Assembly (NCBI RefSeq): GCF_014701195.1
Contig: NZ_AP018712.1
Span: forward strand, 576,501-640,500
Origin: Tepiditoga spiralis
Lineage (GTDB): Bacteria > Thermotogota > Thermotogae > Petrotogales > Petrotogaceae
Direction: 5' to 3'
Length of the DNA: 64,000 nt
A program made the translations under genes and the position numbers. Position 1 is the first letter of the stretch; every line of letters begins with the position of its first letter. The notes under the pieces are model-generated. The model searched no databases. It had not been told where the DNA came from and worked only from the letters and a program-made list of their open reading frames with translations. This document shows positions 8,805 through 56,825 of this stretch, piece by piece.

Positions 8805-8867
8805 TTTTATCACCTCGTTTTATATCCTTACATGTTATTATATCAAATCTTCTTTAAAATAGTATGA

Positions 8868-28391: not shown

Positions 28392-28495
28392 TTATAATAA
28401 AAAATTTGATTAAATTTATTATTTTTTGGTATATATTTATAATTTTATGAATTATGTTATAATAACATATAAAGAAGTAAAACGAGGTGATGAAA

Positions 28496-30389: not shown

Positions 30390-30694
30390 AAATCCTCAAG
30401 AGTGGAAAAACGTCCCACTCGGTACTAGTAAATGGTAGGATAAGAACAAAAGATAAAGATATAGTTATAGGCTCAATGGACTTTTAGTTTCAATTCCTCA
30501 AGAGCGTAAAACCATCCCGCTCGGTACTAGTATATGGTAGAATAATAACAAGAAAATATGCAACAAAAATACCTATGTCATCAAAGTTTCAATTCCTCGT
30601 AGGTAGAATAATAACTTTCATAACCATGAAGTATAAAGTTAGATGCTCCGCGTTTCAATTCCTCATGAGCAGAAAACCATCCTGCTCGGTACCA
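30390..30694 (-). CRISPR. CRISPR array 2, truncated remnant (four repeats, three spacers)
   Basis: Read on the minus strand, the units are: a repeat cut by IS21 at 30652-30694, a normal 30-bp repeat at 30586-30615 (GTTATTATTCTACC...GAGGAATTGAAAC), an extended 63-bp repeat at 30487-30549, and a degenerate last repeat at about 30390-30447 that is also extended. Spacers of 36, 36 and 39 bp lie between. Degeneration at the left marks the leader-distal end, so the leader and first units once lay to the right. That agrees with the orientation of the cas operon, but an IS21 element now occupies that side. Confidence 0.93.
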
Positions 30695-30802
30695 TGTATT
30701 TTGCAAGTGAAGAATAAGCCAGGAATACAATTGAAAAATGGGCCAGGAAGGAAAAAATATGATAAACTCTTCTCAGAGAACAAGAGAGGAGTTGAAGGAA
30801 GG

Positions 30803-32347: not shown

Positions 32348-33106
32348 AAAATAACAAAAATAAAATATATGAAGAAATAGAGTTTTATTCAAAAGAATTA
32401 AAGTTATCAAAATTAAAAATACATTTTAAAGAATATATAAAAGATGCAAATAATACAGAGATAAGTTATGAATTATTTTTGTATGAGATATTAAAAAAAG
32501 AATATGAAAGATTATTAGATTCAAGATTAAAAAGCAGGATAAGAACAGCAAATTTCTCACAAAAAAAATATATAGAAGATTTAGAAAAAGAATATTTACC
32601 AGAAGATGCAAGAAAAAAATTAAAAGTATTATCTACATTAGAATTTATACAAACAAATCAGAATGTAATATTATCTGGTAATCCTGGAACAGGGAAAACT
32701 CATATAGCAATAGGACTTGGTATGAAAGCTTGTATGAAAGGATTTAAAGTATTATTTACGACAATTCCATTATTAATAACTCAATTAAAAGAATCTAGAT
32801 CAAATAAAACTTTGAGAGCTTTTCAAAGTAAATTTGGAAAATATGACCTTGTAATATGTGATGAATTAGGATACATATCTTTTGATAAAGAAGGTGCTGA
32901 ATTATTATTTTCTTTATTATCTCTAAGAGCATCAAGAAAATCTACTGTAATAACAACTAATTTATCCTTTGGTGGGAAGAAATATTTAATGATCCTGTAT
33001 TATCTGCAGCTATGATTGATAGATTAACTCATAGAGCTTATATGGTCAATATGAACATAGTTATAGATTAAAAGAAACAGAAGAATTTATAAAATCTTTG
33101 GATTGA
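32344..33106 (+). pseudogene. istB: IS21 helper ATPase IstB, broken by two frameshifts
   Basis: The first 215 or so codons are intact, with Walker A SGNPGTGKTHIA and VICDELGYISF. At about 32975 the conserved TTNLSFGEWEE-type segment reads TTNLSFGGK: a small deletion shifts the frame and ends the protein at 33015. The rest of IstB (EIFNDPVLSAAMIDRLTHRAY) is readable in another frame up to about 33050. A second shift is needed to reach LKETEEFIKSLD and the natural stop at 33104-33106. IstB assists strand transfer, so loss should disable transposition. Confidence 0.85.
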
Positions 33107-33304
33107 TTGGAGGGATGCTTATAGAAAGATTGGTGAGATTATAATATTAACAAACTCTTAATGTTTCCTGAAACGTGGTTTTATTCAGCGTTTTATTTTT
33201 TTGGCCCATTTTTCAATGAGACCATAAAAAATTTTGTGTAAATAAAAAAATGAAAAACCTTCTTCTTGGGATGGTAAAATAAAACCAGGAAGGAGGTTTT
33301 TAAA

Positions 33305-34558
33305 ATGGAAAGAAGGAAAAAAGAAGAAAAAGAAGAAAGCAACATTGAAAAATTAGCAAGATTAATAGCAAGGGATCCAGAGGTAAACACAATAAAAGAT
33401 GTATATGAAAAGATAAAAGAATTAGTGGGACCGTTAATACAAGGGATGTTAGAAGCAGAATTAGAAGATGAATTAGGTTATGGGAAATACGATAAAGAAA
33501 ACAAGAAAACAGATAATTCTAGAAATGGGTACAGTTCAAAAAGAGTAAGAACAAGTGTTGGAGAAATGGAATTAAAAATACCTAGAGATAGAAAAGGTGA
33601 ATATGAGCCTAAAATAGTACCAAAGTATAAAAAAGATATCTCAGATATTGAAGGTAGAATAATAGGTATGTACGGTTTAGGATTAAGCACAAAAGATATA
33701 GTAAAGAACGTAGAGGACATATATGGTGTAGAATTATCAGCGGAAATGATAAGTAAAATAACTAATAAAATATTACCTGAAATTAGAGAATGGCAAAGCA
33801 GACCTTTAGAAGAAATATATACTTTTATGTTTATGGATGGAATAGTGTTTAAAGTAAAAGATGATGGAGAAATAATAAAAAAGACTGCATATGTTGTACT
33901 TGGTGTAAATATAGATGGATTTAAAGAAGTACTTGGTATATATATAGGTGAAATAGAATCATCAAAATTTTGGTTAAGAGTATTAAATGATTTAAAAAAT
34001 AGAGGAATAAAAGATATATTAATAGCTTCTGTAGATGGATTAACAGGTTTCCCACAAGCAATAAAAACTGCTTTCCCAGATACTATAGTACAAAGATGTA
34101 TAATACATCAAATAAGAAATACATTAAAATATGTTAGTTACAAAGATAGAAAAGAACTTGTTAATGATTTAAAAAAAGTATATAAAGCACCAAATAAAGA
34201 TATTGCCTATTCAAACTTACAAGATTTGAAAGAAAACAAATGGACTAAATACAAATTAGCATTAGAAAGTTGGGAAAAACATTGGGAAACAATATCTCCT
34301 TATTTCGATTATGGCGATGATGTAAGAAAAATAATGTACACAACAAATGTAATAGAATCATTAAATAGGCAATATAGAAAAGCAACAAAAAATAAAACAT
34401 CATTTCCAAATGACGATGCATTATTGAAAATGCTTTATTTAGCAACAATAAATGCAACAAAAAGATGGACAGCTCGTTATAGAAATTGGAGCAATGTCCT
34501 AAACGAATTATCCATCTTTTTTAATGAAAGAATTACAAAATATATCTATAATTCCTAA
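33305..34558 (+). CDS. IS256-family transposase, IS-A copy 2
   Basis: 417 residues, the same protein as at 5509 apart from Glu instead of Ala at position 2; only a few silent base differences were noticed. All catalytic regions are intact, so it could act in trans on copy 1 even though the IS-C insertion separates it from its own right end. Confidence 0.95.
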   Translation: MERRKKEEKEESNIEKLARLIARDPEVNTIKDVYEKIKELVGPLIQGMLEAELEDELGYGKYDKENKKTDNSRNGYSSKRVRTSVGEMELKIPRDRKGEYEPKIVPKYKKDISDIEGRIIGMYGLGLSTKDIVKNVEDIYGVELSAEMISKITNKILPEIREWQSRPLEEIYTFMFMDGIVFKVKDDGEIIKKTAYVVLGVNIDGFKEVLGIYIGEIESSKFWLRVLNDLKNRGIKDILIASVDGLTGFPQAIKTAFPDTIVQRCIIHQIRNTLKYVSYKDRKELVNDLKKVYKAPNKDIAYSNLQDLKENKWTKYKLALESWEKHWETISPYFDYGDDVRKIMYTTNVIESLNRQYRKATKNKTSFPNDDALLKMLYLATINATKRWTARYRNWSNVLNELSIFFNERITKYIYNS

Positions 34559-34678
34559 CATAAATATACTTTGTAACATAACAAAAAATACCTATAACAC
34601 ACAAAAATGAATATTAAATATTATAATGCTATACCTTGCAATAAAAAGTTGCAAAAGGCTATTTATTACAAAAAATTA

Positions 34679-36221
34679 GAGAGTGTAAAATATTAAGTGT
34701 ATAAGGAAAAAAAGATACAGATCTGGTGGTAAAATAAAACCAGAGGAGGTACGAAAAATGGGAAATGTACTACAGGAAATAATAAAGGAAATGGTAAGAA
34801 AAGGAGAAATCCGAACAATAAAGGATATAAAGGAATTAACAAAATCACTGACAGGAAATCTGATCCAGGAAGTACTGGAAGCGGAACTCGAAGACGAGCT
34901 GGGCTATGGAAAGTATGACAGAGAAAAGAAAAATACAGAAAATTCAAGAAATGGCTACAGGAAGAAGAATTTAAAGAGTAGTAGCGGTATGATAGAATTA
35001 ATGGTACCTCGAGACAGAAAGGGAGAATATGAACCCAAAATAGTTCCAAAGTATTCGAATGATATTTCAGAGATAGAGGAAAAAATAATAAGTTTGTACG
35101 CAAGAGGAATGACCACCAGGGATATATCTGATCAGATAATGGATTTGTACGGATTTGAAGTATCAGCTGAACTGGTGAGCAAAATAACAAATAAGCTTAT
35201 GCCATTAATAAAAGACTGGCAAGAAAGGCCATTACACGAAATATACACCTTCGTTTTCTTGGATGCAATATACTTCAACGTTAGAGAGGACGGAAGGATA
35301 GTAAAGAAGGCTGCTTATGTAATAATAGGTGTTGACATAGATGGAATTAAAGATGTGCTCGGGATATATGTTGGTGAAGTAGAAAGTGCCAAGTTTTGGA
35401 TGGGAGTACTTAACAACCTCAAAAACAGAGGAGTTAAGGACATACTTGTAGCTTCAATAGATGGTCTTTCTGGATTCGAGCAGGCTATAAATGCAACCTT
35501 CCCGCAAACTATGATACAAAGGTGCATAATCCACCAGATTAGAAACACCCTGAAATATGTTCCTCACAAGGACAGGAAAGAGTTCGCAAAGGACTTAAAG
35601 ACAATCTATACAGCACTGGATGAAAAGACAGGCTATGATAATCTAACCAATGTAATAAACAAATGGGGAGACAAGTATTACGCTTCATTGAGGAGCTGGG
35701 AGAAAAATTGGCACCTATTATCCACCTTCTTTCAGTTCTCAGACGGGGTAAGGAAGATTATGTACACCACGAACATCATAGAGTCACTTAACAGGCAATT
35801 CAGGAAGGCTACCAAGACCAAATCAATATTCCCTAATGACGATGCTGTCCTTAAAAGTTTATACCTTACTACCAAAAACGTGACAAAAAAATGGACAGCA
35901 CGGTTTCACAACTGGAACGCTGTTATTTCCGAACTGGCCATCCTTTTCGAGGAACGTCTTAAAGACTACCTCTGAAAGTAGCTTGTAATCCTAAAAAACT
36001 TAATATTTTACACTCTCGGGAGATGGGTTGTCGCCCTTTCAGTCATTGCAGTTTTTTACTGTAAAAGGTTGGTTTTACCAATTTTGCCTTATTTAATTCA
36101 TACTATTCAGGAACATTTTTTTCATTTTCTAATAACTACATTTTTTTAAGATTTTTGTCGTTGTTTTCCAATATTTATATGCTACCAGATATATCTAATA
36201 CACACTAATCTTTACAGACTC
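34679..36221 (+). mobile_element. IS256-family IS-C, copy 1 (1543 bp, nested in IS-A copy 2)
   Basis: Flanked by the exact 8-bp duplication AAAAATTA (34671-34678 and 36222-36229), and IS-A copy 1 shows the uninterrupted target. The left end GAGAGTGTAAAATATTAAGT has a perfect complement at 35998-36017, but the duplication places the true right end 204 bp further, at CTTTACAGACTC, whose complement GAGTCTGTAAAG matches the left end imperfectly. Base composition is visibly richer in G and C than the surroundings, indicating recent arrival. A copy of identical length lies at 53379. Confidence 0.92.
34758..35975 (+). CDS. IS256-family transposase, IS-C copy 1
   Basis: 405 residues, homologous to the IS-A transposase (ELEDELGYGKYDRE, PRDRKGEYEPKIVPKY, SIDGLSGFEQAI, QRCIIHQIRNTLKYV, TTNIIESLNRQFRKATK) but clearly a different element. 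Codon use includes AGG, CTC, ACC and GCC codons rare in neighbouring genes. The start follows GAGGTACGAAAA. The same protein is encoded at 53458. Confidence 0.95.
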   Translation: MGNVLQEIIKEMVRKGEIRTIKDIKELTKSLTGNLIQEVLEAELEDELGYGKYDREKKNTENSRNGYRKKNLKSSSGMIELMVPRDRKGEYEPKIVPKYSNDISEIEEKIISLYARGMTTRDISDQIMDLYGFEVSAELVSKITNKLMPLIKDWQERPLHEIYTFVFLDAIYFNVREDGRIVKKAAYVIIGVDIDGIKDVLGIYVGEVESAKFWMGVLNNLKNRGVKDILVASIDGLSGFEQAINATFPQTMIQRCIIHQIRNTLKYVPHKDRKEFAKDLKTIYTALDEKTGYDNLTNVINKWGDKYYASLRSWEKNWHLLSTFFQFSDGVRKIMYTTNIIESLNRQFRKATKTKSIFPNDDAVLKSLYLTTKNVTKKWTARFHNWNAVISELAILFEERLKDYL

Positions 36222-36375
36222 AAAAATTATACTAAAAACTTCTAAAATTTACTCTTAAAGCATATTTCTTTATAGTCGATAATTCTTATGGAAATACTTT
36301 AAAAATAATAACTAATTTTATTTATTTTTACCTTCCAAGAAGAGCCGTTTACACAAAATTTTTTATGCTACCTTT

Positions 36376-36654
36376 TCAATTGTAATTTGGCTTATTCTTC
36401 ACTTGCAAAATACAAAATTTAGATGTTTTTTTTATTTCACCTATAATAAGTTTATCTTTTGATTTGTATACTAAATCAAATTTAACTCTTCCAAAAGATA
36501 TTTCTTTTTTCTTCTTTTGATAAACTTGTTCATGTAAAAATCTTCCATAATCTATATTCTCATCATATTGATCCGGAATTATATTTCTTGACATAAACCA
36601 AACTTCTCTTTTACATATTTTATAATACCAAATTAAAGTTCCTGTTTGTTTCAT
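36376..36654 (-). pseudogene. cas4: Cas4 nuclease, truncated after 80 codons by IS21
   Basis: The ATG at 36654 follows GAAGGGAT. The retained part (36415-36654) is a RecB-like Cas4: TGTLIWYYKICKREVWFMSRN with the first Cys, GRFLHEQVY, VKFDLVY and GEIKKTSKF, which carry the His, Asp and Glu-x-Lys catalytic residues. The frame then enters the IS21 end (CILQVKNKPNYN) and stops at 36376. Missing are the Q-x3-Y motif and the three C-terminal cysteines of the iron-sulfur site; Cas4 of this type is normally about 165 residues. Almost certainly inactive. Downstream cas1 and cas2 are absent. Confidence 0.9.
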
Positions 36655-36667
36655 ATATATCCCTTCT

Positions 36668-38935
36668 TTATATAATAAATTCATTAGATTTATTAATAAA
36701 TCCTATATTTTTATCATAGTAAAGATCTATCATTTCTTTTGTTAAAATTTTTATATTTCCATATTCTTCAAAATTTTTTATTGAGTTAAAATTTTCTTTA
36801 GTAATTATTAATGAGATTGTATAATCATAAAACTCTTTTTTTATTTTTAAAAATGATTCTTTTCTTTTATAAAAATCATTTATAGATAAAATATTTTTAA
36901 AAACTTTTAGTATTTTTGATGCTTTTTCATCTTTTTCAATAAAAATAGATACACTTAAAGTATTTTCTATTAAGTTAAAATTTTTATATATTTTATCGTA
37001 ATTTAACTTTTTTATATTTTCTAAAATTTTTTTTGACATATCTGTTGACATATTATTGTGTATTTTTTTATAATAAATTTCTAAATATTCTAACAAATCT
37101 TTTTCATATATGATTTCAATATCTCTTAATACTTCTTTTGTTGGAATTAATACTACTTTTTTATATATGTATTCAAAATCTTCTTTTTTACTACTTTTAT
37201 TTCTTTTTAAAGAAAATAATTTTAAAAGTCCCATTTGATTTTTATTGTTCCTATTGCATCTACCTGCTGTTTGTATTATATTATCAAGTGGTGCTAAATC
37301 TCTGTAAATAACATCCAAATCTATATCTACACCAGCTTCAATTAATTGAGTAGATACTACTATTTTTCTTTTTTTGGAAGTTTTTATATAATTTATTCTT
37401 TCTAATCTTTCAATTGGAGTTATATTAGTAGAAAGATATGTTATTTTTTCATTTATGTTTTCCTTTAATAGCTTAAAAAATTCAGTACTACTCTTTATAG
37501 TATTAAAAACAAATAAAAAATCTTTCTGTGGATTTTCCTTTAAATCTTTTAATGCTATTTCAGAAATATCCTCTAAATAAATTGTATTTAAATTATTTAT
37601 CTTTGATATTTTATATCTTGAAAATTTTGAAAAATATTTTTTCTTATCATTTATAAGAGGAAAAATATTTATTTTATCTTCTTTAAATATAAAAGGCATT
37701 GTTGCCGTCATTATTATTATTTTTATATTAAATATTTTCGTTATTTTTTCAAATATATCCTTTATCAAATTCCAATAAATATAGGGTAATGTTTGAATTT
37801 CATCTAAAATTATTATACTATTTGAAATATTATGAAACTTTCTTAATGTCAAATTTTGATTAGTTATTATTGAATTAAATAATTGCCAAAATGTTGTTAT
37901 TATAAGTGGTTTATCCCAATTTTCTATTAAAAATTGAGCTTTTTCACCTTTATAAAAATCATCATTATTTTTATATTCTATTTCAGACAAATGATGATGT
38001 ACTGTAAGATAATTTTCTGGAACTAATTCATTAATTTTAAGCATTTCAACTGCAATTTTTGCAGTTTGATCTACTATTGATGTATAAGGTAATGCATATA
38101 TTATTTTATTGTACTGTGAATTTAAAGAATTAAAAGCTAAATTAAATGCATTCAAAGTTTTTCCTATTCCTGTTGGAAGATTTAAAGAAAATATTTTTGC
38201 ATCATTTAAATTAGTAAAAGATTCTAAATAAGCACTTTCTCTCAATTCATTTAATTCATTTGATACTACATTTTTAAATTTAATAGCTTTATATTTATTA
38301 ACAAAATTTTTGACATCTGAAAAATAAATATTTTTTATTTTTTTATGAAAAATAACTTCTGTTTTATCTGAATAAGTTAATATTGAAAAAAAGAAATTTA
38401 AAATAAAATAATATTCATCTTTAAAAGACTGTTCATCTAAATCATATAAAAAATCAATATAGTCTTTTATTTCAAAGTATTTAATTTCGTTTTTTATATT
38501 TAAATCTTTAAAATTTAAATTATCCCATATTTTTTTTAAATGTTCATCTTCAATAAATATTGCACTATCAAAATCTTCCAAATTTCCATGATGCTTTTTT
38601 ATTGATTCGAATACAATTAAAGATAATATCTTTGAATTTGTATCTTTATATGTTTTTAACCCTGCATACAAAGCAGATATTAATGAATGTTTTCTTAAAT
38701 CTTTTGAAACACTTATTTCTTCATTTTCTATCGATTCTTTTAAATATTGCTGAAAAAAAGCTGTTGATTTTCCTAAATCATGAAAAAATAACATATTTTT
38801 TAAAGCAACTTCAATATGCTTTTTTTCAAAAGGAAATAACAGCTTTTTTTTATTTTTATAAACATCAACACCTATATTTAAAACACCTTTTAAATGATCT
38901 ATCAATTTAATATTTTCATGAGAGTAAAGCATCAA
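36668..38935 (-). CDS. cas3: CRISPR-associated helicase/nuclease Cas3 (type I-B)
   Basis: 755 residues. The N-terminal HD nuclease has H52-D53 in FFHDLGKS, H83 in RKHSL and H115-H116 in KKHHGN. The SF2 helicase has Walker A LPTGIGKT at about 253-260, the DEIQ box at 378-381, IIIMTATMPF, and the C-terminal AGVDIDLDVIYRD and QTAGRCNRN motifs. Recruited by Cascade, it unwinds and degrades target DNA. All key residues are present. The start overlaps the cas5 end by four bases; ATG 38932 is a close alternative. Confidence 0.95.
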   Translation of the reverse strand: MMLYSHENIKLIDHLKGVLNIGVDVYKNKKKLLFPFEKKHIEVALKNMLFFHDLGKSTAFFQQYLKESIENEEISVSKDLRKHSLISALYAGLKTYKDTNSKILSLIVFESIKKHHGNLEDFDSAIFIEDEHLKKIWDNLNFKDLNIKNEIKYFEIKDYIDFLYDLDEQSFKDEYYFILNFFFSILTYSDKTEVIFHKKIKNIYFSDVKNFVNKYKAIKFKNVVSNELNELRESAYLESFTNLNDAKIFSLNLPTGIGKTLNAFNLAFNSLNSQYNKIIYALPYTSIVDQTAKIAVEMLKINELVPENYLTVHHHLSEIEYKNNDDFYKGEKAQFLIENWDKPLIITTFWQLFNSIITNQNLTLRKFHNISNSIIILDEIQTLPYIYWNLIKDIFEKITKIFNIKIIIMTATMPFIFKEDKINIFPLINDKKKYFSKFSRYKISKINNLNTIYLEDISEIALKDLKENPQKDFLFVFNTIKSSTEFFKLLKENINEKITYLSTNITPIERLERINYIKTSKKRKIVVSTQLIEAGVDIDLDVIYRDLAPLDNIIQTAGRCNRNNKNQMGLLKLFSLKRNKSSKKEDFEYIYKKVVLIPTKEVLRDIEIIYEKDLLEYLEIYYKKIHNNMSTDMSKKILENIKKLNYDKIYKNFNLIENTLSVSIFIEKDEKASKILKVFKNILSINDFYKRKESFLKIKKEFYDYTISLIITKENFNSIKNFEEYGNIKILTKEMIDLYYDKNIGFINKSNEFII

Positions 38936-39651
38936 AACAACACTACTTTTTCATTTATTTCTGGTATATCAATATACTCTTTTATTTCTAGATTTATTGA
39001 TTTTCCAGTTCTTTCAATTAAAAAATCTCTTGATTCAACTAAAACTCTATTAATATTAAATTCAGTTGGAAGATGTATTTTTAAATATTTTTTTTGTGTA
39101 TCAAAAAAATTTATTTTTTCTACAAAGTCAATAGGAATTATTGAAGTTAATTCTTTTCCTTTGTTTTTTACAACATAATCAAATTCACCAACATATTTAA
39201 AATTTGCTAAACACTCTGAAATACCCATTGATACAGTATAAATTGATTTATGTTGTTTTATATTTTGTATCAATTGTTCAAACAAACTATTATTTTTCAT
39301 TGATACAAAAACTCTATACTTTGGATTTTTTAAAAATTCAAATCTTATTTGTGTTCTTGGTGCTTTTTTCCTTGAATTCATTCTTGCAAATAATGGAACA
39401 TATCTTGTATTTATCAAATTTTCTGGTATTAAAATTTTTTGTATAGAGTTTTTTATAGAAATTCCAATTTTAGTTTGTTTATCTTTATAATATTTTAAAT
39501 ATTCATTTTTATCTAATCCTAAAATAGCAGATAAAATACCATAAACTGTTGTTTTTGGTGGAACTGGAAACGTCAAAGGCGATGTTGTTGTATATGGAAC
39601 TTTGAAGTGACCAAAGTCACTCCAAAGGTCAAAAACTAATATCTTATCCAT
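38932..39651 (-). CDS. cas5: CRISPR-associated protein Cas5 (type I-B)
   Basis: 239 residues. The Cas5 RAMP signature is the N-terminal LVFDLWSDFGHFKVPYTTTSPLTFPVPPKTTVYGILSAILGL. It binds the crRNA 5' handle in Cascade. In I-B and related systems Cas5 is not the processing enzyme. It lies four bases behind cas7 and overlaps cas3, so all are probably made from one transcript. Confidence 0.93.
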   Translation of the reverse strand: MDKILVFDLWSDFGHFKVPYTTTSPLTFPVPPKTTVYGILSAILGLDKNEYLKYYKDKQTKIGISIKNSIQKILIPENLINTRYVPLFARMNSRKKAPRTQIRFEFLKNPKYRVFVSMKNNSLFEQLIQNIKQHKSIYTVSMGISECLANFKYVGEFDYVVKNKGKELTSIIPIDFVEKINFFDTQKKYLKIHLPTEFNINRVLVESRDFLIERTGKSINLEIKEYIDIPEINEKVVLF

Positions 39652-39654
39652 AAT

Positions 39655-40551
39655 TTATATCTCCAATTTTTCCCAAGTTGATGGTATTTCTCCAATTATA
39701 TTTAAAAACTTGTCTACTTTATATGATATTTTATCAATTTTTTCTTCTTCTTCTTCAAATACTTCTAATAATTTTGAAATATCTAATGTAAAATCTTCTA
39801 ATTTTCTTATTTTATTTTCAAGTTTTTCAGTTTTTATTTTTATATATTTATCTAAATCTCCTATAAAATAACCTTTTTCTTTATAATCAACTTTTATTAA
39901 TAACCTTGGCATTTGCCCAAACTTTGAACGGCTAATTAAATTTTTTGTTCCATTCCACATTCCATCTAACAATAAATCAACATCTTCTTCAGATAAACTT
40001 GTGTGTTTTGCTGCTGTTTCATTTATAATTCCATGGAAAGCAATAAATGAATATGGCAATATATATTCTTCTCTAAAAGTATTTTGTTTTGTACCTTGTT
40101 TTGAAGCAAATGCTCCAGTTCCTTTTATATGCTGGAGTTCAACTTGATGCAATGAACGCCCTACCTTAAATTGAATAGGTCCAGTATAAGTTATTGAATC
40201 TTTTGAAAGTGGTATTACTCCACCAAACAATCTAACATCTATACATTTATTCAAAATATCATTAGCATTATTTTCAAAGTTTCCTGCTCTTTTTTTACCA
40301 TCTTGAATATACATATTTTTATCATCATATATAATTTCTCTAACAAAAATATCTTTGTTATTTTCTCCATTATAACCTTTATATTCATATAAATAATCTC
40401 TTATAGTTCTTTTTAACCTAACATCAGTTACAAAGTTTATACTAGTTTCTTCATCTATTCTTGGTTTATTGTTATCTAAAGGATCACCATTTGGATTTGC
40501 ATCTGTAATATCATAACAAAATAATAATTCACTTCTTTTTTCAATGTACAT
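39655..40551 (-). CDS. cas7: CRISPR-associated protein Cas7 (Csh2-like, type I-B)
   Basis: 298 residues from the ATG at 40551, which is preceded by GAGGGGGA; a start 11 codons upstream lies inside cas8. Typical Cas7b sequence: LLFCYDITDANPNGDP, RIDEETSINFVTDVRLKRTIRDYL, FGGVIPL, TGPIQFKVGRSLHQVE and the C-terminal SKFGQMPRLL. It forms the crRNA-coating backbone of Cascade. Confidence 0.95.
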   Translation of the reverse strand: MYIEKRSELLFCYDITDANPNGDPLDNNKPRIDEETSINFVTDVRLKRTIRDYLYEYKGYNGENNKDIFVREIIYDDKNMYIQDGKKRAGNFENNANDILNKCIDVRLFGGVIPLSKDSITYTGPIQFKVGRSLHQVELQHIKGTGAFASKQGTKQNTFREEYILPYSFIAFHGIINETAAKHTSLSEEDVDLLLDGMWNGTKNLISRSKFGQMPRLLIKVDYKEKGYFIGDLDKYIKIKTEKLENKIRKLEDFTLDISKLLEVFEEEEEKIDKISYKVDKFLNIIGEIPSTWEKLEI

Positions 40552-40552
40552 A

Positions 40553-42355
40553 TTAATCCCCCTCATTCTTAAAGTTTTTTGCAAGTGTCATTCCAAGAAC
40601 AAAATAAAAACTCATTTCATCAACTGTATATTTACTAAAATTACTATTTAACATATATTTTGATATTTCCGTTTCTAAACTTCTGTAATAATTTTCATCA
40701 TATTCTTCCAATTTGTTTATTATTTCTGGTAAAAGTCTTTTAGCTATTTTTTCATTTATTTTTAAACCATTTAACCGTGCCATAAATGGTTTTGATTTTC
40801 TATTTTTATACTGAATATTTAATAAAAATTCAGTTAATACTCCTTCTAAAAATAAAGCTTTTTTTGTTTCTGTATCTAATATTTTTGCTTGTTCAAAAAA
40901 CTCTTCATACACAGTTTCTACCCCCTTAACAAAATTAAATTTTTTATCTAACAGGTTTAATTCATTCAAGTATAAAACTATTTTAAAAGCTTTTAAAACA
41001 TTTAAATCATAAAAACCATTATTTAAAAATTCACTTCTAATTTTTTTCATAAAATTGTTCAACAAAAAATTATAAGAAATATTTTTATCTATAAAAATAT
41101 TATTTAAAATATCTAAAAAATATTTATTAAATTTTCCATCTATTTTGTTATTTAGAAAAAATTCTCGTATAAAATAAAAAGAAAAATTAAAATTTACTTC
41201 ATCACCTTTTTTTAAAATTATAGGTTTAAAAAAACTCTCTTTTCCAATTAGATCAACTGTTTTTTGTGCAGTAACTAATTTATTCAATCGTGAAGGTGGT
41301 ATCTCTGAAAGTTCTAACAATATATTAAATGCATTGTTAGTTTTTTCAAAAAAAATAAAATTAAAAAGAATACTGTTATTTTCTTTTGAGAGAATTTCTA
41401 AAATTTTTTCTTCTGTTTGAGTAATTTTTCTTCCAGAAATTTTTTTAGAAGAAAATTCAGAATATCTACTTTTTATTCTATTAATCAAATTTTTTAAAAG
41501 AACATCATTTTCTACAATTAATTGTGGAATTAATAAATAATTAAAGCCACAAAATTTATACTTTAAATTATTCATTAGAAATTTTTTACCTCTTTCAAGA
41601 GTTACAGCACAATCTAAACAAACAGGATAATTTTTCCAAGCATTTTCTTTTTTAAAACCTCCAGTTACCATTCCTCGTTTATCAACAGTATAAAATTGAA
41701 ATGTTGACACAAAGCCATAAACTTCATCTTTTTCTTTTTTACATATATAACAATATTTATCCTTTGATTTACTTACTTTTCCACCTTTAATATAAAAATT
41801 TTTATAAGCATCTTCTTTACTTTTTAAAAATAAGTTTTTAAATTCATCAAGTTCTCCAACATAATAAAATTTATTATCTTTTTTAAATACAAAAGTTACT
41901 ATACCTCCACCCTCAATATTTCCATTATTATTTAAAAAATTATTATTTTTTAAATAATCAAAAAACTCTTCTTTTATTTTTTCTTCTGACTTATTAAAAG
42001 ACATTTCAAGATTTTGAAAAAATAAAAGTTCATCACTACTAAAATTTTTTTCATTATTTTTTATTATATTTTTAAAAATTTGACTTATTTTATTTGAAAA
42101 AACTTTTTCAAAAGTTGTAATTTTTGAAGTTGGCGTTTTATCTGGACCATTTGAAAAACCTTTTTTATAAAAATACTTCAATTTTTTATCTGAATCAAAC
42201 TCTTCATAATCTATATTTAAATATTTAAATTCATCTATATCAAAAATAATTTTAAAAACATGTTTATAATTTGTACCTATATCCTCTATAAAATCATTTA
42301 AAAAATTATCATCTTCAGGTATAATTTTTCCTATTTCATAAAGAGCTTCTAACAT
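40553..42355 (-). CDS. cas8b: Cascade large subunit Cas8b (TM1802/Csh1 family)
   Basis: 600 residues, typical for Cas8b. Two CxxC pairs form a probable zinc finger, KYCYICKKEK and NYPVCLDCAVTLERGKKF, about 45 residues apart. The helical C-terminal half ends KAIAxR-like NEKIAKRLLPEIINKLEEY and FYFVLGMTLAK. In I-B this subunit recognises the PAM. AAGGAGG precedes the ATG. No break or missing part is visible. Confidence 0.85.
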   Translation of the reverse strand: MLEALYEIGKIIPEDDNFLNDFIEDIGTNYKHVFKIIFDIDEFKYLNIDYEEFDSDKKLKYFYKKGFSNGPDKTPTSKITTFEKVFSNKISQIFKNIIKNNEKNFSSDELLFFQNLEMSFNKSEEKIKEEFFDYLKNNNFLNNNGNIEGGGIVTFVFKKDNKFYYVGELDEFKNLFLKSKEDAYKNFYIKGGKVSKSKDKYCYICKKEKDEVYGFVSTFQFYTVDKRGMVTGGFKKENAWKNYPVCLDCAVTLERGKKFLMNNLKYKFCGFNYLLIPQLIVENDVLLKNLINRIKSRYSEFSSKKISGRKITQTEEKILEILSKENNSILFNFIFFEKTNNAFNILLELSEIPPSRLNKLVTAQKTVDLIGKESFFKPIILKKGDEVNFNFSFYFIREFFLNNKIDGKFNKYFLDILNNIFIDKNISYNFLLNNFMKKIRSEFLNNGFYDLNVLKAFKIVLYLNELNLLDKKFNFVKGVETVYEEFFEQAKILDTETKKALFLEGVLTEFLLNIQYKNRKSKPFMARLNGLKINEKIAKRLLPEIINKLEEYDENYYRSLETEISKYMLNSNFSKYTVDEMSFYFVLGMTLAKNFKNEGD

Positions 42356-42367
42356 ACAAAATCCTCC

Positions 42368-43096
42368 TTAAATTTTTTCAATAAACCCATACCCCATAGA
42401 ATTTTTCGAACCTAAACCTGTATTTAAAGCAACATTTAAAAGTTTTGGATTTCCAGTTAATTCATATTCTCCCATCCATCCTTTTATTATAAATCCCTTA
42501 TAATTAGTAACTACTTCTTTCAAATTTTTAACATGTCTTATATTTAATCTTTTATCATTTATTTCTTCGTTATAATAAGAACTATACTTTTTTATTATAT
42601 TTTTTTTCAAAATCTTATAAAACTTTTCTTCATATGGAGTATAATAATAAGTTTTATTTTTATTATTATCTTTAAAAGTACTATAAACTACTACTGGAGA
42701 CAAAGATTTAACTCTTAAATACTCTGTATTAAATTCATTTTTTTCTCCAGATATTTCTTCGATAACAACCTTTTGATTATTTATATATAATTCATTATTA
42801 AACAATAAAGTTTTAGATATATATTTCATAAATTCAGTGTTTATAGATGTAATAGAAAAAATAGCAAAATCATAAAACTTAATTTTTTTAACCTCTTTAT
42901 TATATTTAAAATTTCCATTTAATCTTGAAAAAGAATATAATTTATAATTTCGATTTTTATATTTAAAACCAACATCATGAATAAATTTTTGATAAGTTTC
43001 ATCATTTATTAATTTTAAAACAATTGCTTGAAGTATATGATTGTAATTAATAGGTATTTCTAATGTATCAAAAGAAAATTTTATATTTAATCTCAA
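42368..43096 (-). CDS. cas6: CRISPR RNA endonuclease Cas6
   Basis: 242 residues. RAMP fold with an N-terminal PINYNHILQAIVLKLI in which His20 may be catalytic, and the glycine-rich C-terminal loop NTGLGSKNSMGYGFIE of Cas6. It cleaves pre-crRNA within the repeat. TTG start after AAGGAGG. First gene of the minus-strand cas operon; divergent from array 1. Confidence 0.92.
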   Translation of the reverse strand: MRLNIKFSFDTLEIPINYNHILQAIVLKLINDETYQKFIHDVGFKYKNRNYKLYSFSRLNGNFKYNKEVKKIKFYDFAIFSITSINTEFMKYISKTLLFNNELYINNQKVVIEEISGEKNEFNTEYLRVKSLSPVVVYSTFKDNNKNKTYYYTPYEEKFYKILKKNIIKKYSSYYNEEINDKRLNIRHVKNLKEVVTNYKGFIIKGWMGEYELTGNPKLLNVALNTGLGSKNSMGYGFIEKI

Positions 43097-43157: not shown

Positions 43158-43298
43158 GTGCATATTTAAATTTATATTTATACATAAAAATTTAATATTT
43201 TTATATCAAAAAAACATTATTACTTTACATTTAATAAATCAAATGATAAATTAATACTTAAAAAATAAGAAGAAGATATAAAATAAAAAATTGAAATT

Positions 43299-43507
43299 AT
43301 CGTCAACCACCAATGTGTCTATAAACACCTGGGGTCGACGATTTCATAAACAGGCATAAATAAAAGAAAGTTACTGTTTTTTAATGTTTTAGATATAATT
43401 TGACAACATATATCTTTTGTAGTATAATTTTATTGCCTATTAATTGAAATTATTTTATAATAATAGTTTTATGCAACACCTATATGAAAAAATATTTTTA
43501 TTAATGG
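43299..43507 (+). promoter_or_regulatory. CRISPR array 1 leader with consensus promoter and a hairpin
   Basis: AT-rich leader directly before the first repeat. A consensus promoter, TTGACA (43400-43405), 17-bp spacer, TATAAT (43423-43428), points into the array and would start transcription about 70 bp before repeat 1. Upstream, 43299-43342 forms an interrupted stem: ATCGTC/GACGAT, ACC/GGT, CCA/TGG and GTGT/ACAC. Its role (protein or IHF-like binding, terminator, small RNA) is unknown. The rest of 43158-43298 shows nothing clear. Confidence 0.8.
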
Positions 43508-44179
43508 GTTCTTATTCTACCTATGAGGAATTGAAACGTGAAAGAAAAACATATAACAGAAGAGAAATACCAAGTTCGTTCTTATTCTACCTATGAGGAA
43601 TTGAAACTCAACAAATTTATAGGAAGTGATTTAATAGTTAGAAGTTCTTATTCTACCTATGAGGAATTGAAACCTAATAAATTGTATTTTATCATTTACA
43701 TTCAGTTCTTTGTTCTTATTCTACCTATGAGGAATTGAAACTACTTAAGACAATAAATTATACTTAAAATTAAATAGTTCTTATTCTACCTATGAGGAAT
43801 TGAAACCTGGTGTTTCAATGAAAAGTGGATCTTCTTCTAATTCGGTTCTTATTCTACCTATGAGGAATTGAAACGATGAAACAGAATTTAAAAATTTATT
43901 AGATGTAGTGGGTTCTTATTCTACCTATGAGGAATTGAAACCGTCATCGCTTTCTAAAAATGTTTTCATTACTGATAGTTCTTATTCTACCTATGAGGAA
44001 TTGAAACAGTATAAAATGGCTCTATGGGCTTAATTTAAGCTTAAGTTCTTATTCTACCTATGAGGAATTGAAACAATGGGATGGAAAAGGTAACTGTTAT
44101 CTCTATGACTAGTTCTTATTCTACCTATGAGGAATTGAAACGGAGAAAAGTTGATTTCTTTACTTATAGTGATATTATA

Positions 44180-44344
44180 GTTCTTATTCTACCATTTACT
44201 TGTACCGAGCGAAATGGTTTTTCGCTCATAAGGAATTGAAACCTTCATCTATAACTTGTTCGTCTTCTAATAAAAATTTTCGTTCATATTCTACCATTTA
44301 CTTGTACCGAGCGAAATGGTTTTTCGCTCATAAGGAATTGAAAC
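44180..44344 (+). repeat. 165-bp extended repeat-spacer-repeat cassette, copy 1
   Basis: Extended repeat 11, spacer 11 (39 bp) and extended repeat 12. Base-for-base identical to 44650-44814. The first repeat starts GTTCTTATT like the short repeats, the second GTTCATATT like the distal long ones, suggesting that the cassette was copied into a short repeat by recombination. Confidence 0.9.
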
Positions 44345-44649
44345 TAATCATTTAATACAAAACGAAAAGAATGAAAACGTGTTCTTATTCTACCTATGAG
44401 GAATTGAAACGATACAAATATATTAAAAGATTTCTTTATAGATTTGTGTTCTTATTCTACCTATGAGGAATTGAAACTTAAATAATATACATGATTCATT
44501 AAATAAATCATTCTGGTTCTTATTCTACCTATGAGGAATTGAAACTACTAAAGACCAAATTAAAAAGGTTTTGCCTACAGCGTTCTTATTCTACCTATGA
44601 GGAATTGAAACCTATTATAAATACTTGATAATTCCCTCAAAGTATTTAT

Positions 44650-44814
44650 GTTCTTATTCTACCATTTACTTGTACCGAGCGAAATGGTTTTTCGCTCATA
44701 AGGAATTGAAACCTTCATCTATAACTTGTTCGTCTTCTAATAAAAATTTTCGTTCATATTCTACCATTTACTTGTACCGAGCGAAATGGTTTTTCGCTCA
44801 TAAGGAATTGAAAC
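44650..44814 (+). repeat. 165-bp extended repeat-spacer-repeat cassette, copy 2
   Basis: Extended repeats 17 and 18 around spacer 17, identical to 44180-44344. Different spacers flank each copy. The same spacer recurs a third time at 44914-44952 between slightly different extended repeats. Confidence 0.9.
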
Positions 44815-45354
44815 GGATGATCCATATTGGTACGAAAAATAGATTTCCAAGTTCATATTCTACCATTTACTTGTACCGAGCGGGATGGTTTTTCGCTCAT
44901 AAGGAATTGAAACCTTCATCTATAACTTGTTCGTCTTCTAATAAAAATTTTCGTTCATATTCTACCATTTACTTAGTACCGAGCGGGATGCTTTTCCGCT
45001 CTTGAGGAATTGAAACTCTTCTAATTCATCTTGAATATTGAATTGATATAAAGGTTCATATTCTACCATTTACTTGTACCGAGCGAAATGGTTTTTCGCT
45101 CATGAGGAATTGAAACTTTTCAATTGATAAATTTTCATTATCTAAATCAATAGTTCATATTCTACTATATACTAGTACCGAGCGGGATGCTTTTCCGCTC
45201 TTGAGGAATTGAAACTCTTCTAATTCATCTTGAATATTGAATTGATATAAAGGTTCATATTCTACCATATACTAGTACCGAGCGGGACGGTTTTCCGCTC
45301 ACGAGGAATTGAAACATAAAATAAAATCATAAAGTTGATTAGGGAGGTTATAAA

Positions 45355-45897
45355 ATGAGTATTAATTATACTGATAAAGAACAACAAATTATTAATACCT
45401 TAATGTCATTTACTTTTTTATGGGAACTTCATAATTTAAAGTTTTTAGAATCTAAATGTTATGCTGATTTAAAATTTAAAGATCGTTTTGTTCATGAACA
45501 GATAAAATCAATTGGAATTATGAATAATGGAATGATTCCAGTTATTTTATATATGATGTTAATAATTCCAAAAGAATTATTTGATAATACAAAATATTCA
45601 GAAAATTTTAAAGAAATAAATAAACAAATATCTAATTTAAAAAATATAGAAATAATAAAATCTACATATAAAAGTGATGAAAAAAACATTAATTACATAA
45701 GACATTTTAGAAATGCAGTTGCACATATGAATATAAAATGTGAAAAAACAGTTGTTGTATTTGAGGATAAAAATAAAAAAGAAAATTTTAAAATAGAGGT
45801 TAGTTATAAAGCACTTGGTGAAATAGTTGGTTTTTTTTATAAATTCTATGCTGAACTTATTGAAGAATATAAGGAAAAATATAAAAATAAACAGTAA
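45355..45897 (+). CDS. HEPN-motif protein immediately downstream of CRISPR array 1
   Basis: 180 residues, not assigned to a named family. Mostly helical, with one long hydrophobic stretch (GMIPVILYMMLIIP). It carries R119-N-A-V-A-H124, the Rx4H motif of HEPN ribonucleases, in HFRNAVAHMNI. AGGGAGG lies eight bases before the ATG. The start is 40 bp behind the last repeat with no terminator between, so array read-through could express it. A HEPN RNase could act as toxin or abortive-infection effector; alternatively it is a non-catalytic HEPN protein. Confidence 0.65.
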   Translation: MSINYTDKEQQIINTLMSFTFLWELHNLKFLESKCYADLKFKDRFVHEQIKSIGIMNNGMIPVILYMMLIIPKELFDNTKYSENFKEINKQISNLKNIEIIKSTYKSDEKNINYIRHFRNAVAHMNIKCEKTVVVFEDKNKKENFKIEVSYKALGEIVGFFYKFYAELIEEYKEKYKNKQ

Positions 45898-46082
45898 AAT
45901 GCAAAAACCAATCAATATATAAAAATAGTATAAAATAAAATTTTTGATAAAAAATACTGTATAAATTAATAACAAATTTATATGATTTATTTTATTAGAG
46001 TTATTTTTTCTTTTATTTTATCCATTTTTCAAATTAAATTATGTTATAATTTATTTATGAAGAAGTATATGGGGTGATTAAA

Positions 46083-47864
46083 ATGAAAAAAAGACTTCCA
46101 ATAGGAAGAAGTGACTTCAAATCGTTAATTGAAGATAATATGTACTTTGTAGATAAAAGTATGTTAATCAAAGAAGTTATTGAAAGTGGTGATGTTTTAT
46201 TAATAACAAGGCCAAGAAGGTTTGGGAAAACTCTCAGTCAATCTATGATGAAGTACTTTTTTGATATTACTCAAAATAACGAACACCTCTTTAAAAATTT
46301 AAAGATATACAAAGAAAAAAATATAATAGAAAAACATTTAAATAAACATCCAGTTATATACATCACCTTTAAAGATTTAAAGTCTAATAACTTAAAAAAG
46401 ATGCATGCTTTATTAACAATGGAACTTTCAAGATTATATACAAAACATGAATATGTTTTTGAAATATTGAGTGAAAAGGAAAAGATTGTATTTAAAGAAA
46501 TAATGTTAGAAACAGCAGATGATGCTAAATATGAAAACTGTATAAGAAGTTTATCTGAATATATGGAAAGATACTATGGTAAAAAGGTAATAATATTAAT
46601 AGATGAATACGACACTCCCATTCAACAAGCTTACTTATACGGATACTATGATGAAATAATATCTTTAATTGGTAACTTATTTGGCATGGCTTTAAAAGAC
46701 AATGTATACCTTGAAAAAGCAGTTCTTACTGGTATAACAAGAGTTTCTAAAGAAAGCATCTTTACTGGTGTGAATAACTTAGAAGTTTCTACTGTATTAA
46801 ATGAACTATTCAATGATAAGTATGGTTTAACTAAAGAAGAAGTTGAAGAAACATTGAAGTATTATGAACTTGAATATGAAGAAAGTGAAGTTATAGATTG
46901 GTACAATGGTTATAATTTTGGTGGTGTTGAAATTTACAATCCTTTTTCTATAGTAACTCTTGCAAAGAATAAAGGTAAAATAAGACCATATTGGATGAAT
47001 ACGAGTGGAAACTACTTAGTTAAACAATTAATAAAACAAGGAAGTGCTGAATTAAAAGATAAAATAGAAAAACTAATAAATGGTGAAGAAATTGAAAGTA
47101 CAATAAATGAAACTATGGTTTATGGAGACTTAAATAACAACTTAGAAGAGTCTGTATGGACATTATTTTTATTCAGCGGATATTTAAAATGGACAAAAAA
47201 TATAAATCATGATTATGAAAGATATACTTTAAAGATACCAAATAAAGAAGTAAAAATATTTTATAATAAAACTGTAGTATCTATGCTTGAAGAAGAAAGA
47301 ATAAAGCTCAATAATATATTAATAAATTTAATAAATGGACATATAGAAGAGTTTAAAGAAGACTTTCAAAAATTAACTATTAATACATTGAGTTACTTTG
47401 ATGTTAGCGGAGAAGAACCAGAAAGATTTTATCATGGACTAATACTTGGAATGAGCGTTGGTTTGAAAGAAAAGTATATAATAAAGAGTAATAGAGAAAC
47501 AGGACTTGGAAGAGCAGATGTTATTTTAATTCCAAAAGATAAAACAGATAAAGGAATAATAATAGAGTTTAAAAAGTTTTATAAAAACGAAAAAACACTA
47601 TTAAATAGTGCTAAAAATGGATTGAAACAAATAAATGAAAAGAAGTATGAAGAAGAGATAAAAGATCATGGAATAAATGATATAATAAAAGTTTCAATAG
47701 CTTTTGATAAAAAAGAGGTTGAAATTGTTAGTAATTTAGATAAAGATGTTGAATTAACAGAGATAGAAAAAGTAGCAAAGAACATGATTGAAAATGGAGT
47801 TGATATAGAGTTTATATCTAAAATGACAAATTTGTCTATTGAAAAAATTAAAAATTTAATATAA
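46083..47864 (+). CDS. AAA-ATPase-like protein with PD-(D/E)XK nuclease domain, copy 3
   Basis: 593 residues with intact P-loop, Walker B and nuclease motifs. The block at residues 115-160 is unique to this copy, while the block at 405-435 matches the copy at 7002 and not that at 28496, so the three copies are mosaics. ATG 46083 follows GGGGTGA. Its extended -10 TGTTATAAT (46042-46050) resembles that of copy 2. It lies between the HEPN gene and a convergent DUF554 gene. Confidence 0.9.
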   Translation: MKKRLPIGRSDFKSLIEDNMYFVDKSMLIKEVIESGDVLLITRPRRFGKTLSQSMMKYFFDITQNNEHLFKNLKIYKEKNIIEKHLNKHPVIYITFKDLKSNNLKKMHALLTMELSRLYTKHEYVFEILSEKEKIVFKEIMLETADDAKYENCIRSLSEYMERYYGKKVIILIDEYDTPIQQAYLYGYYDEIISLIGNLFGMALKDNVYLEKAVLTGITRVSKESIFTGVNNLEVSTVLNELFNDKYGLTKEEVEETLKYYELEYEESEVIDWYNGYNFGGVEIYNPFSIVTLAKNKGKIRPYWMNTSGNYLVKQLIKQGSAELKDKIEKLINGEEIESTINETMVYGDLNNNLEESVWTLFLFSGYLKWTKNINHDYERYTLKIPNKEVKIFYNKTVVSMLEEERIKLNNILINLINGHIEEFKEDFQKLTINTLSYFDVSGEEPERFYHGLILGMSVGLKEKYIIKSNRETGLGRADVILIPKDKTDKGIIIEFKKFYKNEKTLLNSAKNGLKQINEKKYEEEIKDHGINDIIKVSIAFDKKEVEIVSNLDKDVELTEIEKVAKNMIENGVDIEFISKMTNLSIEKIKNLI

Positions 47865-55231: not shown

Positions 55232-56763
55232 ATCTTTTCTATTTTGTATTCGTCTATGTTTCTTTTTTCTGAGTTTATGTTTATTCCTATTATGTACACT
55301 TCTTTCCCTTTGTACTTTTCATAGTACTTCATTTCTTTTATTTGATTTAAGGCTTTTTCTGCACTCTTATCTATCTTTATTTCCATTATGTATATGTCGT
55401 CTTCTTCTATTACTATATCGCTTCTTCCTAAGTTCGTTAATTCTTCTGCTGTTACGTTTAGTCCTGCTGATGCTAGTATTGTGTATATCAATGAATGATA
55501 GTAACTTTCTTCTTTTTTGTGCAAGTTGTATGGTATTGCACTTATTATTCTTTTTATTTCTTTTATTATTCCTTCTATGTCTTTTTCTTTTATTGCTTTC
55601 CATATCGTTTTGTTTATTTCTTTTATTTTTCCTCTTTCAAGTTCATAATTTGCTTCTAATATCATCTTTGAAAAGCTGTTCTTTACTTCTATGTTTGGAT
55701 AGTCTAATAGATATTCATATTCCATTCCATATTTTTCTTTTCCTTTAAAGGTTAAGTATCCTGCTTGTGTAAAGAATATGCTTGCATTTGCTTCTTCTAT
55801 TTCTCGGGTTGAAAAATCGAGTTTGCTCACCGGATACTTCACTAAGTCTTCGTATCTTATCTTCTTCCCTTTTATGTATTCATACAAGAATGATGGTGAT
55901 CCACTTTCAAACCAATAGTTTTCAAATTCTCTTTTTTTAAAAAATTGTAGTATTGAAAATGGATTGTATACAGAATTCTCTCCATCAAATGAAAATCCAT
56001 TGTAGTACATCTTTAAGTTTTTTAATAATTCTTTCTCTTCCATATTCATTTCAATTGCTGTTTCTTTTATGTGCTCTTTAAAGTTACTTTCTAACTCTTC
56101 TTGTGTATATCCCAACATCTGCGCATATGCTTTATCCAATGATATATCGTTTAAGTTGTTCAATGCAGAAAATACTCCTGTTTTTGTGAACTTTGTTATT
56201 CCTGTCATGAATACAAACTTTATGTATTCATCTTTTGATTTTATGCTCACATAAAAGTCTCTCAATATTTCTCTATACTTTTCTGCTTTTTCTTTGTTGT
56301 TTATATTGTCTAATATTGGTTTTTCATATTCATCTACTAATATTACTACTCTTTCTTTTTGGGATAGTTTTATTATTAGTTCATTGAATGCAAACTTATA
56401 GTCTGTTTCTGTTATTTCTATTCCATTCCTATTTCCTTCTAATTTTATTATCTTTGTTAGACTTTCTTTCATTCTTTCCACATTATCTGTTGCTACATCT
56501 AAAAGGTTTATCCTTATTACTGGATACTCTTTGAACTCCCATTTGTCGTATATGTATGTTCCTTTAAATAAGTCTTTTTCTCCTTTAAATAGATAGTACA
56601 GTGTTGATATCGTTAAACTCTTTCCAAATCTTCTTGGTCGAGATAAAAAAATAGGTGCTTCTGAACTTATTAAATCTAATATATACTTTGTTTTATCTAT
56701 ATATGTATAATTTCCTTCTTTTATTTTTTTATAGTCTTGTACTCCTATTGGTAGTTTTTTCAT
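55228..56763 (-). CDS. AAA-ATPase-like protein with PD-(D/E)XK nuclease domain, divergent member
   Basis: 511 residues, same architecture as the three other copies but clearly different in sequence and shorter. P-loop SRPRRFGKSLT, Walker B VVILVDEYEKPI, TGITKFTKTGVFS, YNGFSFDGENSVYNPFS, and nuclease LGRSDIVIEEDD..IMEIKIDK. ATG 56763 after GAGGTGA. An extended -10 (TGATATAAT on the minus strand, near 56784-56791) lies upstream and diverges from the polA promoter. Role unknown. Confidence 0.9.
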   Translation of the reverse strand: MKKLPIGVQDYKKIKEGNYTYIDKTKYILDLISSEAPIFLSRPRRFGKSLTISTLYYLFKGEKDLFKGTYIYDKWEFKEYPVIRINLLDVATDNVERMKESLTKIIKLEGNRNGIEITETDYKFAFNELIIKLSQKERVVILVDEYEKPILDNINNKEKAEKYREILRDFYVSIKSKDEYIKFVFMTGITKFTKTGVFSALNNLNDISLDKAYAQMLGYTQEELESNFKEHIKETAIEMNMEEKELLKNLKMYYNGFSFDGENSVYNPFSILQFFKKREFENYWFESGSPSFLYEYIKGKKIRYEDLVKYPVSKLDFSTREIEEANASIFFTQAGYLTFKGKEKYGMEYEYLLDYPNIEVKNSFSKMILEANYELERGKIKEINKTIWKAIKEKDIEGIIKEIKRIISAIPYNLHKKEESYYHSLIYTILASAGLNVTAEELTNLGRSDIVIEEDDIYIMEIKIDKSAEKALNQIKEMKYYEKYKGKEVYIIGININSEKRNIDEYKIEKI

Positions 56764-56825
56764 CTTTATCACCTCTAATTTTTATTATATCATAGTTTCT
56801 ATTAATTATTAATGGTTTACTACTA

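Follow-up and report, generated by a model that had tools for sequence, protein, structure and literature searches.

A hairpin-extended repeat variant in a type I-B CRISPR system of Tepiditoga spiralis and its parallel in a sister genus

The type I-B CRISPR system of Tepiditoga spiralis contains what appears to be a new variant of CRISPR repeat, in which an insert of 33-34 nt bearing a hairpin lies within the normal 30-nt unit, and an unexpected parallel to this variant occurs in a sister genus. No description of such hairpin-extended repeats was found in a search of the literature (open-licence papers). The long units are read here as I-B repeats that gained an RNA hairpin early, were subsequently copied as units and most likely act in crRNA maturation, a reading to which we assign a probability of about 0.5. 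The window analysed is a stretch of 64,000 nucleotides of contig NZ_AP018712.1, to which the positions in Table 1 and in the text refer.

Table 1. Features of the type I-B locus and its two arrays, by position in the window
Feature	Position	Strand	Remarks
Array 2, terminal long repeat	30390..30447	-	3′ end degenerate; hairpin GAGTGGGACGTTTTTCCACTC, compensatory C-G to T-A
Array 2, long repeat	30487..30549	-	one stem mismatch (GGGA/TTAC)
Array 2, short repeat	30586..30615	-	GTTATTATTCTACCTACGAGGAATTGAAAC
Array 2, long repeat	30652..30694	-	5′ side cut by IS21 end; hairpin GAGCAGGATGGTTTTCTGCTC, compensatory G-C to A-T
cas4 remnant, 102 aa	36376..36684	-	PF01930 positions 1-77 of 160; cut by IS21 end at 36389
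cas3	36668..38935	-	TIGR01587 and TIGR01596
cas5b	38932..39651	-	TIGR02592 1.6e-39
cas7 (Csh2)	39655..40584	-	TIGR02590 1.4e-88
cas8b (TM1802/Csh1)	40553..42355	-	PF09484 1.3e-142; TIGR02591 4.7e-49
cas6	42368..43096	-	TIGR01877 1.1e-41; nearest solved sequences include PDB 3pkm/3i4h
Array 1, promoter	43400..43428	+	TTGACA, 17 nt, TATAAT; sigma-70 consensus match 12/12
Array 1, leader-proximal section of ten identical 30-nt repeats	43508..44141	+
Array 1, long repeat, 63 nt	44180..44242	+	hairpin GAGCGAAATGGTTTTTCGCTC at 44207-44227
Array 1, long repeat, 63 nt	44282..44344	+	hairpin as in 44180 copy; flank marker GTTCATATTC
Array 1, four short repeats flanked by long ones	44381..44611	+
Array 1, long repeat, 63 nt	44650..44712	+	with next spacer, duplicate of 44180-44281
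Array 1, long repeat, 63 nt	44752..44814	+
Array 1, long repeat, 63 nt	44851..44913	+	G-U intermediate hairpin GAGCGGGATGGTTTTTCGCTC
Array 1, long repeat, 64 nt	44953..45016	+	hairpin GAGCGGGATGCTTTTCCGCTC
Array 1, long repeat, 63 nt	45054..45116	+
Array 1, long repeat, 63 nt	45153..45215	+	hairpin GAGCGGGATGCTTTTCCGCTC
Array 1, terminal (oldest) long repeat, 63 nt	45253..45315	+	hairpin GAGCGGGACGGTTTTCCGCTC

Array 1 (43508-45315, forward strand) consists of 23 repeats, 14 of 30 nt and nine of 63-64 nt (63 nt in eight, 64 nt in one), the long units making up 39% of the total and starting at the nine positions given in Table 1. Array 2 (30390-30694, reverse strand) has three long repeats, one of them truncated and one degenerate, and a single short one. 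Mapping of the repeats in both arrays bore out the counts of the initial annotation, which had reported long repeats as nine of 23 in array 1 and three of four in array 2. All 14 short repeats of array 1 are identical (GTTCTTATTCTACCTATGAGGAATTGAAAC), and matches to the Rfam model CRISPR-DR2 are confined to short repeats. A promoter with a full consensus match just 5′ of the first short repeat sets the polarity of the array, the short repeats being leader-proximal and young and the long ones leader-distal and old. The long repeats occupy ranks 11, 12 and 17-23 of the 23, a leader-distal bias for which a rank permutation test gave 6.5e-5 with units that are not independent of each other. Segmental duplication has left one spacer in the array three times and another twice, and since these copies are kin by duplication array 1 holds only about six independent long units. 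The core sequences of the two duplicated spacers had no exact match in IMG/VR. A HEPN-domain gene (pEK499_p136 family, 45355-45897) lies downstream of array 1 in the same orientation, its start 40 nt past the terminal repeat. No terminator-like site was found between the two, and the gene may be co-transcribed with the array.

The long format reads GTTC(A/T)TATTCTACC, followed by AT(T/A)TACT(T/A)GTACC, the hairpin GAGCG..CGCTC and (A/T)(T/C)(G/A)AGGAATTGAAAC, such that the insert lies inside the repeat and upstream of the presumed Cas6 cut, as the initial annotation had placed it, with the hairpin 7 nt from that cut. TACC is repeated in the long repeat, but the second TACC lies inside the insert. 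None of the ten aligned copies departs from GTACCGAG where the stem starts, from CTC where it ends or from AGGA ahead of the presumed cut, and TACCTATRAGGAAT is the most conserved portion of the repeats of relatives. The flank marker GTTCATATTC is present in seven of the nine long repeats of array 1 versus none of the 14 short ones, a linkage indicating that insert and flank were copied, or descended, together. The two long repeats that lack the marker, at 44180 and 44650, each precede the triplicated spacer and resemble the products of crossover between a short and a long repeat.

The hairpin of the insert has a stem of 8 bp with three compensatory pair changes (C-G/U-A, G-C/A-U and G-C/A-U), and occurs in the stem variants GAGCGAAA/TTTCGCTC, GAGCGGGA/TTCCGCTC, GAGTGGGA/TTCCACTC and GAGCAGGA/TTCTGCTC. 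The stem positions vary together as had been claimed, the copy at 44851 being a G-U intermediate and the 30487-30549 copy, which folds no better than shuffles, having a G.A mismatch. Across the eight distinct sequences 98.4% of the stem cells are paired compared with 94.7% in shuffles (sd 1.0), three pairs are changed on both sides compared with 0.5 in shuffles, and none of 500 shuffles reached either the observed pairing or the observed number of both-sided changes. Sliding the stem partner by one to three columns lowers the pairing to 45-75%. In a simulation in which the observed number of stem substitutions was placed independently, at least three compensated pairs arose with P = 9e-5 to 5e-4, according to the transition bias assumed, and by both measures the covariation lies above background. 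By our own count from the alignments, change per site is at least as frequent in the stem as in the flanks. One stem pair is G-U in seven of the eight distinct sequences, and the tolerance of G-U pairs points to pairing in RNA rather than in DNA. The predicted folds of the flanks vary among the long copies, with the 5′ tag partly paired in several. Some long copies, but not all, are also predicted to pair the linker with AUAAG/AUGAG, a helix that for this reason is not claimed, and a 7-bp stem predicted in the short repeat (UUCUUAU/AUGAGGA) was set aside, not being conserved among relatives. The initial annotation had attributed the paired changes to selection for structure, of which the selection, or at least the preservation, of base pairing is supported; as a source of such changes, quasi-palindrome mutation is the main rival to selection.

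According to this rival, which is mutational and involves no function, quasi-palindrome correction (template switching in replication) together with slippage would lengthen old repeats and keep their arms complementary. We regard it as possible, though improbable. The stem forms an imperfect palindrome, and a single correction event could account for the step from the 44851 copy (GGG/TTC) to the 44180 copy (AAA/TTT); the leader-distal units are those that have existed longest, and the inserts of the sister genus described below include exact reverse complements of the 5′ half of the repeat (AGGTAGGA vs TCCTACCT; GGTAGAG vs CTCTACC), as expected of templated insertion. However, the inner G-T pair has been left uncorrected in nearly all copies, the closing pairs and GTACC are invariant, and the old array ends examined in two further genera (g3 and g5, five species) are without extended distal repeats. 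The linked flank marker and the near-identical inserts also indicate that the long units were copied and not formed in place. The persistence of the G-U pair, the invariant closing pairs and the copying of insert with flank weigh against a quasi-palindrome origin.

The operon divergent from array 1 comprises cas6, cas8b, cas7, cas5b, cas3 and a cas4 remnant and is of type I-B, with Cas8b, Cas7, Cas5b, Cas3 and Cas6 of the I-B effector all encoded in the one operon. A cas4-cas1-cas2 module is usual at I-B loci and is not required for the subtype. At this locus the module is incomplete, with the cas4 remnant present and cas1 and cas2 missing, and the long-repeat units are filed under I-B by effector genes and repeat only. 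In relatives the I-B loci have the same gene order running on to cas4-cas1-cas2, with arrays on both sides. Near-identical IS21 ends are found at 30695, abutting the first repeat of array 2, and at 36389, where the cas4 frame ends, and for this reason IS activity most likely removed the remainder of cas4, together with cas1, cas2 and the array 2 leader. The interval separating array 2 from the truncated cas4 contains two IS256-type transposases and IS21 istA/istB (33305-35975; 30695-36389). Four AAA-ATPase-like paralogues (PF09820) also occur within the 64 kb (7029-8813, 28487-30277, 46074-47864 and 55252-56772), two of them about 89% and 95% identical to the 46074-47864 copy, and a PDDEXK_9 domain was confirmed in the two paralogues tested.

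The three cas1 genes of the genome sit elsewhere, in loci with unrelated repeats, and derivation of the long insert from another CRISPR repeat of the genome was ruled out, the repeats of the three other systems being unrelated. A separate CRISPR locus (G000:C1:2036590-2043990, L082, with 2028600-2029880, L112; genome coordinates) encodes Cas6, a TOTE-type primase, Cas1, Cas2 and an MpAgo-like Argonaute. Its spacers are interrelated and rich in inverted repeats, with perfect arms of up to 14 bp, and 11 of its 35 spacers fold at z below -2 compared with one of 34 in the two I-B arrays. This Argonaute-bearing locus may capture structured RNA or terminators.

The phylum was searched by pattern for repeats with an interruption between CTACC and AGGAATKGAAAC. 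Apart from this genome, extended repeats turned up only in one sister genus, in all six of its species (G013-G018); in the other matches the repeat was ordinary and CTACC belonged to the spacer before it. The 30-nt repeat of the sister genus, CTTTTTATCCTACCTATRAGGAATGGAAAC, there becomes CTTTTTATCCTACCTATRAGGAATGGA + 10-11 nt + AGGAATGGAAAC, 49-50 nt in length, and a doubly extended terminal repeat of 68-69 nt is common to two of the species. The extended units lie at or near the leader-distal end (0 of 200,000 permutations), one array having 42 short repeats and then one extended, another 95 short repeats and then extended-short-extended, and the array tails, terminal extended repeat included, are recognisably common between species. 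At the loci read the cas set is the same as here, and the Cas6 proteins of the two genera are homologous and about 45% identical. In one species (G018:C60) both array ends pass into a palindromic sequence that is itself repeated, CACCCCTTCACAGAAGGGGAATTAAACCGACTACCCCGTCTGCAGCA.

The flanks of the sister-genus units are nearly identical, with inserts that differ but are all G-rich (63% G, 1% C) and are unrelated in sequence to the insert of T. spiralis. These inserts are predicted to fold back onto the pyrimidine-rich 5′ half of the repeat. In most units the predicted stem stops 9-10 nt short of the 3′ end, which places its base 1-2 nt ahead of the presumed Cas6 cut. The 8-nt tag has a paired probability of 0.71 in the short repeat and of 0-0.19 in the extended ones. 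The summed folding is -158.8 kcal/mol versus -102 ± 8 kcal/mol for random AT-rich inserts, shuffled G-rich inserts fold nearly as well, and a comparison of each unit's own arms with those of other units found no unit-specific folding (permutation P = 0.41). The signal in the sister genus is therefore compositional and not covariation, composition explaining most of it, and unit-specific covariation across its repeats was rejected on the same P value, with one fitting unit only (CTCTACC, insert GGTAGAG). That unrelated inserts are found at different positions of the repeat in the two genera suggests that the two extensions were gained independently.

It is conceivable, though unlikely, that the long repeats are pure fossils, having been normal under an earlier adaptation and Cas6 regime, with each unit a snapshot of the repeat that was then leader-proximal and the covariation a record of past selection only. 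The leader-distal position of extended units in both genera, the array tails common between sister-genus species and the loss here of cas1/cas2 and of the array 2 leader are all in keeping with this. It leaves unexplained, however, why adjacent old units of the sister genus have identical flanks yet different inserts, and it overlaps with the explanation preferred here in that past function is needed as well.

A covariance model of the insert recovered from its own genome 12 strong copies, all within the two arrays, the next match having E = 1.5, and covariance model, DNA and pattern searches of this genome together found no copy outside the arrays. The model gave no convincing match in 102 other genomes of the phylum, and the insert was not found in viral contigs (IMG/VR), plasmids or phages. 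When 85,000 species genomes were searched by pattern, 14 single matches came up, approximately the chance expectation, which on inspection were without matching stems or CRISPR repeat flanks. The search of the insert alone against genomes, which the initial annotation had proposed as a check, hence yielded no occurrence outside the CRISPR repeats of the two arrays. The ends of the insert show neither target duplication nor terminal inverted repeats.

It is very improbable that the hairpins are transcription terminators or attenuators along array 1, controlling for example the HEPN gene. They do lie in the distal half of the array with that gene next in the same direction, but no T-tract follows any hairpin, there are no terminator-like sites in 43200-45400 and the gene is absent from the I-B loci read in relatives; nor did any positive evidence emerge for the regulator of array transcription that the initial annotation had considered. 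The most improbable source of the insert, and one that is rejected here, is a MITE- or REP-like mobile hairpin inserting into CRISPR repeats, a parasite that had likewise been suggested and that would suit a discrete hairpin-bearing insert at a constant position, but against which stand the lack of copies outside the arrays in all of these searches, the plain insert ends and the flank variants that travel with the insert.

The locus shares with type I-B systems the effector genes, a 30-nt repeat ending in ATTGAAAC, spacers of 35-40 nt and a divergent array with leader, and differs in its 63-64-nt internal-hairpin repeats and the absence of cas1/cas2 at the locus. In the hairpin-type repeats of types I-C, I-E and I-F, cleavage by Cas6 or Cas5d falls at the 3′ base of the stem. 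The extended repeats would share with these a stable stem upstream of the 8-nt tag, and in the folds predicted for the sister genus the foot of the stem lies next to the presumed cut, whereas the stem of T. spiralis stands off from it and is an added insert, confined to leader-distal units of a weakly structured 30-nt I-B array. Degenerate trailer-end repeats are likewise leader-distal and diverged from the consensus, but the units described here are lengthened at one place, over many units, with pairing kept by compensatory change. MITEs and REP elements have in common with them a short hairpin insert, here confined to CRISPR repeats with no dispersed copies or target duplication. In CreTA (CRISPR-regulated toxin-antitoxin) systems one or two ectopic repeats give rise to an RNA that represses a toxin promoter, in contrast to the full arrays with many spacers found here.

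For the preferred reading, in which the hairpin acts in crRNA maturation, the best-fitting order of events is that the hairpin was inserted early into a former template repeat, that the long form was then copied with each new spacer and later also by array duplications, and that the array template afterwards either changed back into a 30-nt repeat or gave way to one. As the template repeat is now short in both genera, the present system can do without the long form. The insert would fold, in the pre-crRNA, into a hairpin that follows the second TACC and precedes the AGGA^ATTGAAAC end, the presumed site of Cas6 cleavage, and the weakly folded repeat would thereby become a hairpin repeat. Each crRNA upstream of a long repeat would carry a structured terminal handle of about 55 nt where a short repeat would leave 22, and the long structured 3′ handle that the initial annotation had proposed for such crRNAs is supported by analogy with I-B biology. 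The most likely use of the hairpin would be to hold the Cas6 recognition and cut sites together and to shield the 3′ handle, which is normally trimmed in I-B. The 3′ handles of I-B crRNAs are usually trimmed to about 2 nt, and a stable 3′ hairpin has been proposed to govern Cas6 retention (PMC5965380), for which reasons an effect on crRNA maturation is favoured. Both the Cas6 cut site and the effect of the hairpin on processing are our inference from these comparisons.

More tentatively, the arrays of this family may be of two formats, in which leader-distal hairpin units, evolved independently and with different sequences in the two genera, make a distinct class of crRNA. The same Cas6 would then process or protect the two classes differently, and old memories would stay expressed or stable far from the promoter.

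CRISPR repeats are usually regarded as fixed, exactly copied modules, and unstructured and hairpin repeats as a rule characterise different subtypes. In T. spiralis two formats occur within a single array, two genera have gained structure at the old end of the array, and the structure of the repeat in this CRISPR system appears to have been remodelled more than once. The shift of a repeat between unstructured and hairpin types can be tested within one natural locus, where the effect of a 3′ hairpin on Cas6 retention and crRNA trimming may be compared between short and long repeats with the same Cas6 and neighbouring spacers.
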